Assembly: GCF_020166345.1 (NCBI RefSeq)
Contig: NZ_JAIUJS010000004.1
Coordinates: forward strand, 124,001-188,000
Direction: 5' to 3'
From: Winogradskyella vincentii
GTDB lineage: Bacteria; Bacteroidota; Bacteroidia; Flavobacteriales; Flavobacteriaceae
Length of the DNA: 64,000 bases
Under the pieces are notes generated by a model. It was not told the origin of the DNA, did no database searches, and was given only the letters and a program-made list of their open reading frames with translations. The position numbers and the translations under genes were made by a program. Shown piece after piece: positions 17,394 through 24,795 of this stretch; position 1 is the stretch's first letter, and each line of letters starts with the position of its first letter.

Positions 17394-17889
17394 AACTATG
17401 TGTATTAGTTAACTTTTCTCTTATCGTTTTACGTGCTCTAGATAACGCTACTCTAATTGCAGTTTCGTTCATATCCAACATTTTAGAAATTTCTGCAAAA
17501 TCGTATTGTTCTATATCTCTTAGTTGCACTATTATTTTTTGTTGTTCTGGTAATTCTTCCATTATTTTAGAAACCCAGTCGATACTATCCTTTGCCTCTA
17601 CTTGTTTCTGTAATGACGAATTGCTATCCGTATAATTACTGTGAACAATTTTTAAATTTTGGGCTTGTTTAGACTTTAACCTATCTAGGCAAAAATTCTT
17701 GGTCATTGTCATTGAAAAAGCCTCAACATTTTTATACTCACCAATCTTTTCCTTATTTCTCCACAGCTTAAGTAAAATCTCTTGTGTGGCATCTTCTGCT
17801 TCTTCTCTAGAAACCAGTAATCGTTTTGCTAAACGAAACACTTTATCCTTAAAAGGCATTACTAAGCTTACAAAATCTGCTTGTTTCAT
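17380..17889 (-). CDS. ECF-type RNA polymerase sigma factor
   Basis: 169 aa. Region 2 is recognisable as SREEAEDATQEILLKLWRNKEKI followed by FSMTMTKNFCLDRLKSK (-10 recognition), and region 4 as LPEQQKIIVQLRDIEQYDFAEISKMLDMNETAIRVALSRARKTI, a helix-turn-helix. No regions 1.1 or 3, hence an extracytoplasmic-function sigma factor. It heads an operon with an anti-sigma-like protein and two DUF4252 proteins. The target promoters are not known. Its start is 155 bases from the divergent S41 peptidase gene. Confidence 0.93.
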   Translation of the reverse strand: MKQADFVSLVMPFKDKVFRLAKRLLVSREEAEDATQEILLKLWRNKEKIGEYKNVEAFSMTMTKNFCLDRLKSKQAQNLKIVHSNYTDSNSSLQKQVEAKDSIDWVSKIMEELPEQQKIIVQLRDIEQYDFAEISKMLDMNETAIRVALSRARKTIREKLTNTHSYGIK

Positions 17890-19483: not shown

Positions 19484-19513
19484 AAAAGCCACTTTAAACA
19501 AGTGGCTTTTTTT
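19484..19513. terminator. Bidirectional intrinsic terminator
   Basis: GCCACTT, loop TAAAC, AAGTGGC flanked by A- and T-runs on both sides, between the convergent S41 peptidase and TonB receptor genes. Confidence 0.9.
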
Positions 19514-21381
19514 TATAAGTTTAGGTTAAACCCAACACTAACATTTCGCCCTCGAGTGGTGTAACCAAGAATTTCAAAATAATCCTCATTTAAGATATTA
19601 TCAAGTGTGATAAATAGTTTCATTTTATCATCTAATATTTTATGACTGAAGTATAGATTGAATAGAGCATATGCATCCAATTCTGTATTTGAAAATGTAG
19701 AAAAATCTAAATCACTTCGTTCACCAACATATTGAAGATTAATTGACGCATAAGTTTCATTTGAAAAATCATATCCCAAATAAGCATTGGCTCTATGTTT
19801 AGGCAATCTAATGCGTTCTCCATCTATTAGCTCGGTAAAGGTATAATTTGCTGTTAATTGAAGATTTTCAATTAAATCAAGCTCAGCCTCGACCTCAAAA
19901 CCTTGAACTGTGGCGTCTTCTTCGGAGTTTTCATATTCAGAGGTAAATATAATGGTGCTCTTTTCATTTCTATTGAAATAAACACCACTAAGTCTTATAC
20001 CATCCTTAGAATTATATTCTAGACCACCTTCTATGGTTTTATTTTCTTCTGGTTCTAAATCTGGATTAGCGCCAAAAAACCCAAATAACTGGGACAAATT
20101 AGGAGCAATAAATGAAGTAGCATAAGAACCAAATACTTTAGTATACCCCTTGTTTAAATCAAAATTATAAGAAGGATTGATATTGTAAACAAACTGAGAA
20201 CCATACTCGCTGTGATTGTTTAATCTTCCACCAATATTTAGATTTAAGCCGTAATCGGAAACATAAACCACATTTGCATAAGGATCTGAATTTGAGAAAC
20301 TTTCTTCTTCGGCAAAGATGCTGTTATAATCACCATAGTTTATTCCAATTATAGTGTAGAATTTATCATTAATTACGTATTTATTGAATGCATCAACTAT
20401 AATACTTTCTGCATCATTGACTGTACTAAATGCGGAAATGGTTTCTCGATTAATTTTGGTAAATGATGCATTAACCTGAAAACTTCCATTTTTATATTCA
20501 AATTTTGGTGCTAATCCAAATCTAAATTGTTCTGAAGTAAATGTATCATCCGTATCAGCTAATGTAAAATTTGGTGGAGGGAAACCATCAATATCCGTTT
20601 TAAATTTATCGATACTTGTAAATGCAGACAAACTAAATTTATCTGAAAATTCATATCCTAATTTTATACCAGTATTGTATCTAGAAAATGGATCTATTTC
20701 AGGATTATCAGACTTTGCAGCCGATAACCCATCCATATACTGATTCCCAAAACTAGCTACATATGAAAATTTATGCAATGTTCCATTTAATGATATATTA
20801 TTAGTGAAACTTGATACGTTGTAGTTAAGATTATCTTGAGTTTGATTGGTTCCAAAAACACTTAAGATACTCGCAGAAAATTCTTCCTCAGCTGCCTTTC
20901 TCGTAGTAATATTTATAACCGCAGTAGAAGCACTATTACCATATAATGTACTAGACGCTCCTTTTAAGATTTCAATAGAGTCAATGGTGTTTAGGTCTAA
21001 TAATCGTAAATCGAATTCATTCGATACCAATGACGGATCATTGACTTGAATACCATCAATTAAAACTAATACTTGCCTATTGTTACCACCCCTTATGAAA
21101 TAACCAAGATTTTGACCGGCTACACTCCTACTGCCATTAATTTCAATACCACTTTTGGTATTAATTAATTCTGCAACAGTTTTACCTTGGTTACGTTCTA
21201 TCTCATCTCTGGTAATTTTAACAACTGTTTTACCAGAGTTTTCACGTTTAATTTTAAAACGTGTGTCTGACAGCACTACTTCGCCCAACGTTTCTACTTT
21301 TACTGAATCCTTTTTTGTTTGTGCAAATCCAGCAGTTAGCATACCAATAGTTAGCATGCAAAACCATTTAGTTTTGTTCAT
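19513..21381 (-). CDS. btuB: BtuB-like TonB-dependent receptor for cobalamin
   Basis: 622 aa. A signal peptide ends in AGFAQ. The plug domain is clear (GKTVAELINTKSGIEI, IDSIEILKGASSTLYGNSASTAVINI) and the beta-barrel follows with a C-terminal strand ending VSVGFNLNL. The length and the plug resemble BtuB-type receptors. The cobalamin riboswitch about 75 bases upstream and the divergent btuF-btuC-btuD genes make vitamin B12 or cobamide the likely ligand. Energy would come from TonB-ExbBD, not present here. The specific cobamide is not predictable. Confidence 0.9.
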   Translation of the reverse strand: MNKTKWFCMLTIGMLTAGFAQTKKDSVKVETLGEVVLSDTRFKIKRENSGKTVVKITRDEIERNQGKTVAELINTKSGIEINGSRSVAGQNLGYFIRGGNNRQVLVLIDGIQVNDPSLVSNEFDLRLLDLNTIDSIEILKGASSTLYGNSASTAVINITTRKAAEEEFSASILSVFGTNQTQDNLNYNVSSFTNNISLNGTLHKFSYVASFGNQYMDGLSAAKSDNPEIDPFSRYNTGIKLGYEFSDKFSLSAFTSIDKFKTDIDGFPPPNFTLADTDDTFTSEQFRFGLAPKFEYKNGSFQVNASFTKINRETISAFSTVNDAESIIVDAFNKYVINDKFYTIIGINYGDYNSIFAEEESFSNSDPYANVVYVSDYGLNLNIGGRLNNHSEYGSQFVYNINPSYNFDLNKGYTKVFGSYATSFIAPNLSQLFGFFGANPDLEPEENKTIEGGLEYNSKDGIRLSGVYFNRNEKSTIIFTSEYENSEEDATVQGFEVEAELDLIENLQLTANYTFTELIDGERIRLPKHRANAYLGYDFSNETYASINLQYVGERSDLDFSTFSNTELDAYALFNLYFSHKILDDKMKLFITLDNILNEDYFEILGYTTRGRNVSVGFNLNL

Positions 21382-21442: not shown

Positions 21443-21454
21443 GACTTATTTGTT

Positions 21455-21621
21455 GAAATTGGCAGGTCTCCTGACTTGCGTCTTGTTATTAGTCTTCCCA
21501 GAATAATTCCAGTGACATTGAAGAAATAACAAGCGTAATAGCTTACAGTTGCGGGAACAGTTCTGGATTTTCACCAGATTCCCTTTTAATCAACTTTTAA
21601 TAAAAAGTCGAACCAGATTTC
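21455..21621 (-). promoter_or_regulatory. Cobalamin riboswitch
   Basis: Read on the minus strand, the conserved parts appear in the right order: GGTTCGAC near the 5' end, GGGAATCTGGTGAAAATCC, then CCCGCAACTGTAAGC, the GTCACTGG stem region, GGGAAGAC, and the terminal B12 box AGTCAGGAGACCTGCC (21461-21476). The ends GAAAT and ATTTC can pair as P1. It lies upstream of the TonB receptor and would lower its expression when adenosyl- or other cobalamins bind. Motif order and sequence make this secure. Confidence 0.95.
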
Positions 21622-21637
21622 GATGCGAAAATAATAC

Positions 21638-21661
21638 TTATAATCCTTTAGCAGATTATAA
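21638..21661 (-). other. Hairpin between miniprotein gene and riboswitch
   Basis: Perfect 8-bp inverted repeat TTATAATC, 8-base loop, GATTATAA just after the miniprotein stop. It is AT-rich and only loosely followed by T residues, so it may be a weak terminator or a structural separator before the riboswitch. Confidence 0.4.
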
Positions 21662-21663
21662 TC

Positions 21664-21771
21664 TTACTTTTTATTATTCAATTTATATATGAGATATATA
21701 AATCCAACTAAAAAATGCAGAATGATAACACCTGCAACAATATATAGTGTTAAATTTGAATCACCTCTCAT
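21664..21771 (-). CDS. Candidate 35-aa single-pass membrane miniprotein upstream of the cobalamin riboswitch
   Basis: A short frame from ATG to TAA that encodes MRGDSNLTLY, a continuous hydrophobic helix (about residues 8-29) and a basic tail YKLNNKK. The composition is exactly that of a single-pass membrane peptide rather than random sequence. A TAATTTTG -7-like box lies 22 bases upstream, and the riboswitch follows on the same strand 42 bases after the stop, so one transcript could carry the miniprotein, riboswitch and btuB. No homologue is recalled. It may be a small partner of the B12 importer or an upstream leader; either is inference. Confidence 0.55.
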   Translation of the reverse strand: MRGDSNLTLYIVAGVIILHFLVGFIYLIYKLNNKK

Positions 21772-21792: not shown

Positions 21793-21800
21793 CAAAATTA
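21793..21800 (-). promoter_or_regulatory. Candidate -7 box for the miniprotein/riboswitch transcript
   Basis: TAATTTTG on the minus strand matches TAnnTTTG, 22 bases before the 35-codon frame. The -33 element is not convincing. Confidence 0.4.
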
Positions 21801-21820: not shown

Positions 21821-22972
21821 ATGCCACTTAAGTTACATACCATACATATTGTATTGTTAATAATGCTTATTTGTTTAGTCTCTTGTATAAGTGAAACTTC
21901 AAAAGAGCTTTCTCAGAATAATAATGGTAATAATTTAAATCTAAAATATGCTACAGGTTTTTCTGCCAATGACTACGGTACTCACATAGTATTGGAAATT
22001 AAAAATCCTTGGCCAAAAGCTACTAAAACATACAAATACGCTCTACTCAAGGATAATGGCACGACTCCCCAAATAGGTAATAGTTTTGATGGGATTATAA
22101 AGCCCATCAATAATTTGGTGGTTACTTCTACAACTCATATTCCATCTTTAGAATTATTAGGTGTTGAAAACGGTTTGGTTGGATTTCCTGGTACAGACTA
22201 TATATCCTCTGAAAAAACAAGAAAACGAATTGAGACTGGAGATATTAGAGAACTAGGAAAAAATGAAGGGATTAATACAGAAGTATTACTAGAATTAAAT
22301 CCAGATGTTGTTATAGGATTTGGTGTTGATGGTGTAAATAAAACCTTTGAAACAATAAAGAAAGCCGGTATCCCAGTTATTTACAATGGTGATTGGGTTG
22401 AATCTTCTTCATTAGCCAAAGCTGAATGGATTAAGTTTTTTGGTGTTTTGTTTAATAAGGAAAAGGAAGCAGATTCAATTTTTCAATCTATAGAAAGGAA
22501 TTATTTAGAGGCAAAAAGCCAAGCAAAACAAGCATCAAATAGACCAACCGTAGTTAGTGGTGCTATGCACAAAGATGTTTGGTATTTACCGAATGGCTCA
22601 AGTCCAGAAGCAGAATTTCTAAAGGATGCTAATGTAGATTACCTATGGAGTGATACAACAGGTAATGGGAGCTTGTCATTAAGTTTTGAAGCTGTTCTGG
22701 CCAAAGCAAAGAATGCTGAAATATGGTTAAGTCCTTCTTATTACACCAGTTTCGATCAACTTAAAGAAGCAAGTGAATTGTATACTAATTTTGAAGCCTT
22801 TAAATCAAAAAATATTTATACTTTTTCAAGAACTACAGGTTCAACAGGAGGTGTGTTGTATTACGAACTTGGAACTTCAAGACCAGATTTAATCCTAAAA
22901 GATCTGATTAAAATTTGCCACCCAGAACTCCTAAAAGATTACTCACCATATTTTTTTAAAAAGCTTAAATAA
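21821..22972 (+). CDS. btuF: ABC transporter substrate-binding lipoprotein, cobalamin type
   Basis: 383 aa. Lipoprotein signal with lipobox LVSC (Cys at about residue 22). The periplasmic-binding domain follows: RIVVTS-like NLVVTSTTHIPSLELLGVENGLVGFPGTDY, the GINTEVLLELNPDVVIGFG strand and the later ARPTVVSGAMHKDVWYLPNG segment, all typical of the iron-siderophore/B12 binding-protein family (BtuF/FhuD class). It heads btuF-btuC-btuD and is divergent from the riboswitch-controlled TonB receptor, so B12 delivery to the BtuC permease is the best reading. Bacteroidota members carry this extra N-terminal extension. Confidence 0.88.
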   Translation: MPLKLHTIHIVLLIMLICLVSCISETSKELSQNNNGNNLNLKYATGFSANDYGTHIVLEIKNPWPKATKTYKYALLKDNGTTPQIGNSFDGIIKPINNLVVTSTTHIPSLELLGVENGLVGFPGTDYISSEKTRKRIETGDIRELGKNEGINTEVLLELNPDVVIGFGVDGVNKTFETIKKAGIPVIYNGDWVESSSLAKAEWIKFFGVLFNKEKEADSIFQSIERNYLEAKSQAKQASNRPTVVSGAMHKDVWYLPNGSSPEAEFLKDANVDYLWSDTTGNGSLSLSFEAVLAKAKNAEIWLSPSYYTSFDQLKEASELYTNFEAFKSKNIYTFSRTTGSTGGVLYYELGTSRPDLILKDLIKICHPELLKDYSPYFFKKLK

Positions 22973-24001
22973 TTGAACAATAATAAGACATACCGAATTC
23001 AATTTTTGACACTATTAATTGTGTTGTTATTATGCTTTTTAGTTAATATTAGTCTAGGTTCCATAAGCATTCCGTTAGGTAATGTTATTGAAGGGTTATT
23101 TGGTTCATTAGAAAATGAAACTTGGCAAATAATAATTAAGGATTTTAGACTTCCAAAGGCCATTACTGCAATACTAGTTGGATCAGGATTGGGCATTTCA
23201 GGTTTATTAATGCAAACCTTGTTTAGGAACCCTTTAGCAGGTCCATTTGTACTAGGTATTAGTTCTGGAGCAAGTTTAGGTGTTGCAATTATAATTTTAG
23301 GTTCTGGATTATTCGGTGGTGTTTTTGCGACCTACTTAATTTCAAAATGGAGCATTGTAATTGCGGCAAGTCTCGGTAGTTTTTTGGTGTTATTGGCTGT
23401 ATTGGCTGTTTCGAGCAAGGTAAGGGATACGATGGCCATTCTCATCATTGGATTAATGTTTGGTAGCATTACTGCAGCAGTTGTTAGTGTATTATCGTAT
23501 TTCAGCACAGCCGAACAATTACAACAATACATTTTCTGGGGTTTTGGCAGTTTAAGTAATCTCTCGTGGAATGAATTATCATTGTTTTTTGGGCTTTATA
23601 TTTTAGGATTGTTTTTAGCAGTTTTTTCAATTAAAAACTTGAACAGTCTCTTATTGGGCGACAACTATGCCAAGAGCTTAGGGTTGAGTTTAAAACGTAG
23701 CAGGCTAGTAATAATATTAGCAACAAGTCTAATTGCAGGAACCATTACAGCTTTCGCAGGGCCAATTGCCTTTATTGGTTTGGCAATACCTCATTTAACC
23801 AGACAAATATTTAGAACCTCAAACCATCGGATACTTTTACCTGCAGTTTTATTATTTGGAGCAATCGTAATGCTAGTTTGTGATAGCATAGCTCAACTAC
23901 CATCTAGCGACTATGTATTACCAATAAATGCTATTACAGCCTTAGTTGGTGCTCCTGTTGTTATCTGGCTGTTAGTAAGGCAAAGAAAAATGATGTTTTA
24001 A
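22973..24001 (+). CDS. btuC: Cobalamin ABC transporter permease
   Basis: 342 aa with about ten transmembrane helices of the FecCD/BtuC family. Signatures: RLPKAITAILVGSGLGISGLLMQTLFRNPLAGPFVLGISSGASLG (about 62-105), and the later GLAIPHLTRQIFRTSNHRILLPA with the EAA-like coupling region. The start is a TTG immediately after the btuF stop. Its last base overlaps the ATG of the ATPase gene, so the three genes are one transcription unit. The substrate is inferred as B12 from the adjacent riboswitch and receptor; siderophore is the alternative. Confidence 0.9.
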   Translation: MNNNKTYRIQFLTLLIVLLLCFLVNISLGSISIPLGNVIEGLFGSLENETWQIIIKDFRLPKAITAILVGSGLGISGLLMQTLFRNPLAGPFVLGISSGASLGVAIIILGSGLFGGVFATYLISKWSIVIAASLGSFLVLLAVLAVSSKVRDTMAILIIGLMFGSITAAVVSVLSYFSTAEQLQQYIFWGFGSLSNLSWNELSLFFGLYILGLFLAVFSIKNLNSLLLGDNYAKSLGLSLKRSRLVIILATSLIAGTITAFAGPIAFIGLAIPHLTRQIFRTSNHRILLPAVLLFGAIVMLVCDSIAQLPSSDYVLPINAITALVGAPVVIWLLVRQRKMMF

Positions 24002-24795
24002 TGACAAAAAAGAATATAAATATCATACTAAAAACAGAAAACCTTTCAATTGGTTACAAAACCAAGAGAGAAGATCTTGTGGTTGCTTCAAATATTAATA
24101 TTGAACTAGAAAAAGGGAAACTTATAGGTTTAGTAGGTGCAAATGGAATTGGAAAATCCACATTGCTTAGAACTTTAATAAAAGTTCAACCATCGCTCTC
24201 AGGTTTAATACACATTAATAATAAGGATTTAAATCAAACTAGTGTTCAAGAATTGGCTAAACAATTGAGTATTGTTTTAACTGAACAGATGACTTCTAAA
24301 AATCTTTCTGTTTATGAACTGGTTGCCTTAGGAAGACATCCCTATACCAATTGGATTGGGAATTTATCTCAAAATGATATAGAGATCATTAATAGATCTT
24401 TAGAATTGGTAAATATCTCAAGTTTAAAAGACAAAAAGTGCTTTGAGCTAAGTGATGGGCAACTACAAAAAGTCATGATTGCCAGAGCCTTGGCCCAAGA
24501 TACAGATATTATAGTCTTAGATGAACCTACTACGCATTTGGATATGTATCATAAGGCCTATATATTAAAGTTATTGCAAAGGCTTACAAAAGAAACAGGA
24601 AAAACGATATTATTTTCATCACATGAAATTGAGCTAGCGATTCAACTTTGTGACACCATGATTGTAATGACGGACAATGACGTTATTTGTGACCAACCAT
24701 GCAATTTAATTTCAGAAGGTATATTTGAAACTCTCTTTCCTAAAGACCTTATTACATTCGATAATTCAACTGGAAGTTTCAGGGTGAGTAAATAA
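24001..24795 (+). CDS. btuD: Cobalamin ABC transporter ATP-binding protein
   Basis: 264 aa. Walker A GANGIGKST (about 47-55), Q-loop region in VLTEQMTSKNLSVYELV, signature segment LSDGQLQKVMIARAL (C-loop LSDGQ, with D in place of the second G of LSGGQ, a common variant in the BtuD/FecE class), Walker B IIVLDEPTTHLD, and the H-loop in LFSSHEIELA. It starts with an ATG overlapping the permease stop. It energises the BtuC permease in import across the inner membrane. Confidence 0.9.
   Translation: MTKKNINIILKTENLSIGYKTKREDLVVASNINIELEKGKLIGLVGANGIGKSTLLRTLIKVQPSLSGLIHINNKDLNQTSVQELAKQLSIVLTEQMTSKNLSVYELVALGRHPYTNWIGNLSQNDIEIINRSLELVNISSLKDKKCFELSDGQLQKVMIARALAQDTDIIVLDEPTTHLDMYHKAYILKLLQRLTKETGKTILFSSHEIELAIQLCDTMIVMTDNDVICDQPCNLISEGIFETLFPKDLITFDNSTGSFRVSK

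Follow-up and report, generated by a model that had tools for sequence, protein, structure and literature searches.

A conserved single-span miniprotein gene beside a cobalamin riboswitch in Winogradskyella vincentii: probable member of a Crp-type sulfur regulon and candidate partner of an RND pump

The window analysed here, a 64,000-nt stretch of the Winogradskyella vincentii genome, contains on its minus strand a gene for a 35-aa single-span membrane miniprotein (21664–21771), recognised by translation, homologues, and pN/pS. The frame starts with ATG, ends with TAA, and translates to MRGDSNLTLYIVAGVIILHFLVGFIYLIYKLNNKK. On one side it is flanked by a B12-uptake operon that runs divergently, and on the other by a cobalamin riboswitch. 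The operon is btuF-btuC-btuD-like (21821–24795, plus strand; Pfam Peripla_BP_2, FecCD, and ABC_tran), and the riboswitch aptamer (21444–21633, minus strand; RF00174, 114.1 bits) is followed by a btuB-like TonB-dependent receptor gene (19513–21381, minus strand; Pfam Plug and beta-barrel). The preliminary description of the locus had reported a frame with an ATG, a stop, and its own -7 box, followed by the riboswitch on the same strand, and all of these elements were found in the sequence. Immediately 3′ of the miniprotein stop, between the gene and the riboswitch, a hairpin with an A+T-rich stem (21638–21661, minus strand; −6.9 kcal/mol, z −3.3) could act as a weak terminator. When a longer stretch of one relative, L206, was folded, no comparable excess was seen (z −0.3), so the hairpin is not general. 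The receptor behind the riboswitch in four family loci (L102, L108, L109, and L124) was 23–27% identical to that of the window, as if it had been exchanged, and btuFCD and the miniprotein were conserved there. No Pfam or NCBIfam family matched the miniprotein over the cut-off in scans of both collections, and the sub-cut-off matches at E≤1 were EssA, DUF2970, DUF6126, STM3941, and T7SS EssA. No homologue of solved structure was found, the best match (E 0.15) being to an unrelated receptor.

The genomes compared were drawn species representatives, some of them incomplete. A single-sequence search at E≤0.01 gave homologues in 61 of 299 Flavobacteriaceae genomes, and a profile built from 35 rows matched 86 of the 299 at the same threshold. 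For the family count, 66 genomes were retained at E≤4e-7 and the 20 weaker rows were dropped. Within the genus, single-sequence matches were obtained in 38 of 68 genomes and none in the other 30; 34 genomes formed the intact set, and G322, G304, G337, and G319 were placed among the 34 others. The pN/pS of the frame was 0.151, whereas the two shifted frames gave 1.19 and 1.33; the sample was the window plus the best 29 of the 38 genus matches by score, so that the damaged G304, G337, and G319 copies lie outside it. Alignment A1, with 35 rows, showed invariant H19, L27, and K30 and almost invariant G23 and F24, and the length of the family ranged from 34 to 48 residues. Comparative sequence analysis thereby confirmed the frame as a real, conserved gene. 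A profile search of the phylum matched 28 of 395 genomes at E≤0.01, many of them weakly. The best match outside the family (G470:C6:53416-53520, same class, other family) reached E 1e-13, and therefore the miniprotein may occur beyond Flavobacteriaceae. Disruption of the frame in relatives, which the preliminary description had named as an observation that would count against its proposal, was indeed found in some of them. The closest relative, G322, with 98% DNA identity over the stretch, has ATT instead of ATG at the miniprotein start; stops interrupt the genus copies in G304, G337, and G319 and the family copies in L121 and L139, and in L135 an ATG is missing around the expected start position. 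The 66 family genomes counted include at least three damaged copies (L121, L139, and L135). As the ATT start, the stops, and the 30 genus genomes without a match show, the gene is also undergoing loss.

The miniprotein gene has, as far as can be read from its upstream region, promoter elements of its own that are separate from those of the riboswitch. Its -7 box TAATTTTG (21793–21800, minus strand) predicts a start at about 21788 and a 17-nt leader, given the placement of this box at −12 to −5 relative to the start in the cited part of the source (PMC9723704). A putative Crp/Fnr-type operator GTAACTTAAGTGGC (21823–21836, minus strand) lies 22 nt from the -7 box, with its centre at −41.5 and its second half-site one base off GTnAC. 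The position −41.5 is the classical place for a Crp/Fnr-type activator (class II site). The strict palindrome GTnAC-N4-GTnAC was present in 53 of 89 miniprotein upstream regions, compared with a mean of 0.03 in shuffled sequence, and in 52 of the 89 it stood 21–23 nt before the -7 box (TAnnTTTG, or TTTA). The 36 regions in which it was absent were the window, the 15 most distant homologues (L137–L151), and 20 others; none of those 15 had the operator at the fixed distance before the -7 box. In the window, the btuF start codon overlaps the miniprotein operator (21821–21836). The changed half-site GTGGC is complementary to the beginning of the btuF coding sequence (ATGCCAC), and a shift of the btuF start may thus have altered the operator. 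The miniprotein promoters of L112 and L115, read by eye, had the FNR-like TTGATTAATATCAT in the palindrome's stead at 22-nt spacing, and those of L110 and L125 had it in part. The pump operons of G286 (L192) and G184 (L191) keep GTAAC-N4-GTTAC. With FNR-like sites at the miniprotein and the palindrome at the pump, rewiring between Crp-family regulators is possible.

By searching the 68 genus genomes for GTAAC-N4-GTnAC-N20-24-TAnnTTTG, 195 matches were obtained, compared with 17 for the backwards control. The gene content behind these sites was taken from 20 + 12 regions picked by hand among the matches listed. It included a metallo-beta-lactamase/rhodanese protein, TauE, sulphur-transport proteins, rhodanese, and SQR-like flavoproteins, which score below the NCBIfam cut-off, together with thioredoxin, peroxiredoxin, a Tll0287-like protein, CydAB, and TolC-HlyD-AcrB; the names "AcrB", "SQR2", and "regulator" are given by similarity. 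In the window's own genome, palindromes also occur before a peroxiredoxin gene and inside the start of a rhodanese frame (L185:15474-15487 and 17395-17408); they misfit the spaced pattern, which therefore probably captures only part of the regulon. The candidate regulator is a 211-aa Crp protein with cNMP_binding and HTH_Crp_2 domains, matched at E≤1e-25 in 61 of the 68 genus genomes. The six genomes without any site were all among the seven without a Crp match (p 6e-8), the seventh being G342 (75% complete), with three sites. All 34 intact-miniprotein genomes had a Crp match of at least 70% identity (partial in G361), and the match in the window's own genome was 76%. Some genus genomes have a second Crp protein of about 43–48% identity, and the best matches of G335, G341, and G362 were merely 43–48% identical. 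The co-occurrence of regulator and sites suggests that this Crp protein binds the operator, and the gene content suggests that it senses sulfur species. The Crp gene was found directly before a site in L163, L164, L167, L169, and L172. There its end lies at or a few bases from the operator of a sulphur-transport operon, with TauE and/or the metallo-beta-lactamase protein further on (in L172 only the latter). Such operons can be read as a compact sulfur regulon with its regulator. Literature searches gave no Flavobacteriaceae report of this Crp-type sulfur regulon among the matches listed. The miniprotein probably belongs to the Crp-controlled sulfur regulon.

Among the genes behind the sites, the RND pump operon showed the closest association with the miniprotein. 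In the genus, AcrB (E≤1e-200) was present in 32 of the 34 intact-miniprotein genomes and in 7 of the 34 others (p 4e-10). The exceptions were an intact miniprotein without the pump (G358 and G311), the pump with a broken miniprotein (G304 and G319), and the pump without a miniprotein gene (G299, G302, G314, G343, and G349). In the family, AcrB was found in 51 of 66 genomes with the miniprotein and in 66 of 233 without it, with a p of 2e-12 that ignores relatedness; at E≤1e-150, this AcrB is missing from the other 15 of the 66, and the pump occurs in 66 genomes that have no miniprotein. A Pagel-type test over 58 genomes, with poorly determined fitted rates and a genus tree built from btuF, btuC, btuD, and rmuC, i.e., the btu region only, gave LR 33.2 for AcrB (p 1e-6), 18.7 for SQR2 (p 9e-4), and 9.6 for CydA (p 0.049). 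The tree took 58 of 61 sequences, three being too short, and seven further genus genomes were left out. The ten genus genomes outside the tree include G299, G343, and G349 (79–86% complete), whose pump without the miniprotein speaks against the link.

Of the 51 family genomes with both the miniprotein and AcrB, 10 have them within 8 kb of each other. These ten represent about three arrangements and are therefore not ten independent events. In the first, the miniprotein gene is directly behind the pump operon, with TolC-HlyD-AcrB-p101-YgaP-like-miniprotein on one strand (G228). In the second, it is near SQR2, with CydAB on the far side in four of five genomes (G054, G076, G184, G286, and G287). 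In the third, it stands before a block with a purB-like gene (G003, G047, G238, and G269). In G273, the miniprotein gene follows the adaptor gene of a different RND operon and begins 11 nt after its stop, and the layout is the same in G053. Among the family loci, it lies after an RND operon in L130, after another such operon in L141 and L142, and near succinate dehydrogenase-like genes in L120 and L126. An AcrB of 92% identity and a site before TolC are present in the window's own genome, and its sister G322, with the broken miniprotein start, gave no pump match. In each of 20 pump regions (L185–L204), AcrB was followed by at least one of two proteins, a 101-residue protein that belongs to no Pfam family and a YgaP-like transmembrane protein, and these two seem to form a set with the pump. 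From co-occurrence and linkage, the chances that the miniprotein is a partner of the pump appear about even. Since SQR2 and CydA also co-occur significantly with the miniprotein, its association could be with the entire regulon; the associations with the several regulon members are confounded with each other.

We hypothesize that the miniprotein is a conserved single-span inner-membrane protein with its own promoter. A Crp/Fnr-family regulator would switch it on together with sulfide/persulfide detoxification and respiration genes and the TolC-HlyD-AcrB (RND) operon. The protein would most likely sit in the inner membrane with its N terminus outside and its lysine-rich tail inside, and most likely modulate the RND pump by binding to it as a small subunit, in the manner of AcrZ with AcrB. 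Its placement before the B12 riboswitch would follow from the location of the gene in the btuF-btuB intergenic gap, with no part in B12 control. Taken as a whole, the reading as a sulfur-regulon membrane protein and AcrZ-like partner of the RND pump may be right or wrong with about equal chances. The preliminary description had offered a small accessory subunit as one possibility, and this kind of protein is still the likeliest one; the promoter element and the co-occurrence point to a Crp/Fnr-type sulfur regulon and an RND pump. More tentatively, the unannotated Flavobacteriaceae miniprotein family could be an independently evolved AcrZ-type RND partner that is co-induced with the pump by a sulfide/persulfide-responsive Crp-family regulator, the pump acting in reactive-sulfur defence and the invariant His tuning it.

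A rather unlikely alternative is that the miniprotein works alone within the regulon, protecting or altering the membrane during sulfide stress without any fixed partner, or that it is a toxin-like small membrane peptide. The short single span with its charged tail would suit such a role, as would the many different contexts of the gene, often alone between genes of other orientation, and the 15 of 66 family genomes that have the miniprotein without the pump. However, strong purifying selection and the invariant H, L, and K suit a specific contact, and gain and loss of the gene are correlated with the pump.

It is also unlikely that, within the same Crp-type sulfur regulon, the miniprotein serves the respiratory side, where cytochrome bd (with a CydX-like role for the miniprotein) or the SQR-like flavoprotein would have it as a small subunit or an assembly factor. 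The gene stands between SQR2 and CydAB in L110, L112, L116, and L119 (with an OsmC-like gene also in between in L116 and L119) and beside SQR2 alone in L123. CydA was found in 26 of the 34 intact-gene genus genomes compared with 7 of the 34 others, and SQR2 in 21 compared with 3; the invariance of the in-membrane H19 in all 35 rows would also fit a respiratory function. On the other hand, CydA was absent in 8 of the 34 intact-gene genomes, the miniprotein is on the strand opposite to cydAB in L110, L112, L116, and L119, and the tree-aware p values were weaker for CydA and SQR2 than for AcrB. A cytochrome bd or SQR subunit is weakened as a candidate because the window's own genome, which is 100% complete, matches neither CydA nor SQR2 at the thresholds used.

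The earlier idea of a B12-linked accessory protein or of a leader peptide of the riboswitch transcript is very improbable. It is favoured by the 33 of 60 family loci in which the riboswitch lies directly behind the miniprotein on the same strand, an arrangement that spans many genera. Against it, the riboswitch is absent from that place in the other 27 loci (one of which, L152, gave no miniprotein), and this argues against the supposed tie of the miniprotein to B12. In the genus, the riboswitch was found at 55 of 60 scanned loci, and the five without it (L248, L253, L254, L255, and L257) all come from genomes with the miniprotein. Furthermore, some genus members, such as those of L040, L043, and L044, have btuF and the riboswitch but no miniprotein; the miniprotein and riboswitch occur together in L106, L111, and L133, where btuFCD was not found within the 8-kb locus; and in L104 the miniprotein occurs with btuF, and no riboswitch was found. 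The riboswitch and btuB also have their own -7-like box TATTTTCG (21626–21633, minus strand), downstream of the miniprotein stop, which places the predicted start near 21621, 43 nt past the miniprotein gene. Across the loci, the 5′ end of the riboswitch had a TAnnTT(T/C)G box in 50 of 66 loci with the miniprotein, a group that includes broken copies, and in 18 of 21 without it; the strict TAnnTTTG was found in 33 of the 66 and 10 of the 21. As controls, the TAnnTT(T/C)G box occurred in 4.6% of shuffled sequence and in 47 of 655 and 8 of 210 background windows. From the 60 genus loci, this count left out L236 (cut off), L238 (model start not reached), and the five loci without a riboswitch match. 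In all, 68 of 87 loci have a separate -7-like box where the riboswitch begins, which argues against a shared transcript; the common transcript considered in the preliminary description, made up of miniprotein and riboswitch, is not supported, and neither is the leader-peptide role. That description had also considered a transcription start downstream of the frame as evidence against its proposal. The predicted btuB start does lie there, and it concerns the riboswitch and btuB, which are read, from this predicted start, as a transcription unit separate from the miniprotein. Because the riboswitch has a -7-like box of its own and 27 of 60 family loci are without a riboswitch behind the gene, the B12-linked leader peptide or accessory protein was set aside, and the position of the miniprotein before the B12 riboswitch looks incidental. 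That the frame is a chance one without a product is hardly conceivable: it is short and damaged in several relatives, including the closest, but its pN/pS is far below the values above one in the other frames and homologues in several contexts are spread over 66 of 299 family genomes.

If the miniprotein is indeed a sulfur-regulon partner of the RND pump, the pump would belong to reactive-sulfur defence, through sulfur-compound export or membrane protection. Small membrane proteins are easily overlooked in annotation, and here both a regulon and a candidate partner were assigned from sequence alone; both yield direct predictions. The Crp-type operator delimits a sulfur regulon of Flavobacteriaceae that can be put to the test. 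Moreover, a riboswitch neighbourhood can mislead, since no B12 reason was found for the place of the miniprotein.

Peptides from frames near B12 riboswitches are represented by the uORF of M. tuberculosis (PMC11260477), which shares with the miniprotein a small frame near a cobalamin riboswitch. By comparison with that uORF as presented in the cited sections, the miniprotein differs in its position upstream of the aptamer, its putative own promoter, and its membrane span, and no coupling would be expected. CydX, the small subunit of cytochrome bd (PMC4325964), resembles the miniprotein in size and single span, and the miniprotein and cydAB have a regulon in common. In contrast to CydX as outlined in that source, the miniprotein is present without a CydA match, also in the window's genome, and lies outside a cyd operon. 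Crp/Fnr-family regulons with a class II site share with the present one the palindrome at −41.5 and the regulator with cNMP_binding and HTH_Crp_2. Unlike them, it is characterised by its sulfur-gene content and the GTAAC-N4-GTTAC half-site arrangement, for which no literature match was found among those listed.

The comparison that bears most on the proposed pump partner is that with AcrZ of Escherichia coli, a small partner of the RND pump AcrB (PMC7267776). The miniprotein is likewise a single-span protein, tied to an RND pump here by co-occurrence. Pfam holds an AcrZ model, yet the miniprotein matched no AcrZ model in the Pfam and NCBIfam scans at E≤1. AcrZ needs its helix-bending proline P16 for binding to AcrB, according to the cited part of the report (PMC7267776), whereas the miniprotein has no proline in the hydrophobic stretch of any of the 35 rows and an invariant His instead. 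Because of the missing sequence match and helix proline, the miniprotein was not filed in the AcrZ family. It also differs in its occurrence in Flavobacteriaceae and in its still putative binding to AcrB, and literature searches gave no AcrZ-like protein in Flavobacteria among the matches listed. On the other hand, the Lys-rich C-terminal tail in the 35-row alignment suggests by the positive-inside rule that the C terminus is inside, and the N-out/C-in orientation predicted here is the one reported for AcrZ in the sections cited (PMC7267776). If the link to the pump holds, the miniprotein would be a second case, unrelated in sequence and found outside the enterobacteria, of a single-helix protein acting as partner of an RND pump.
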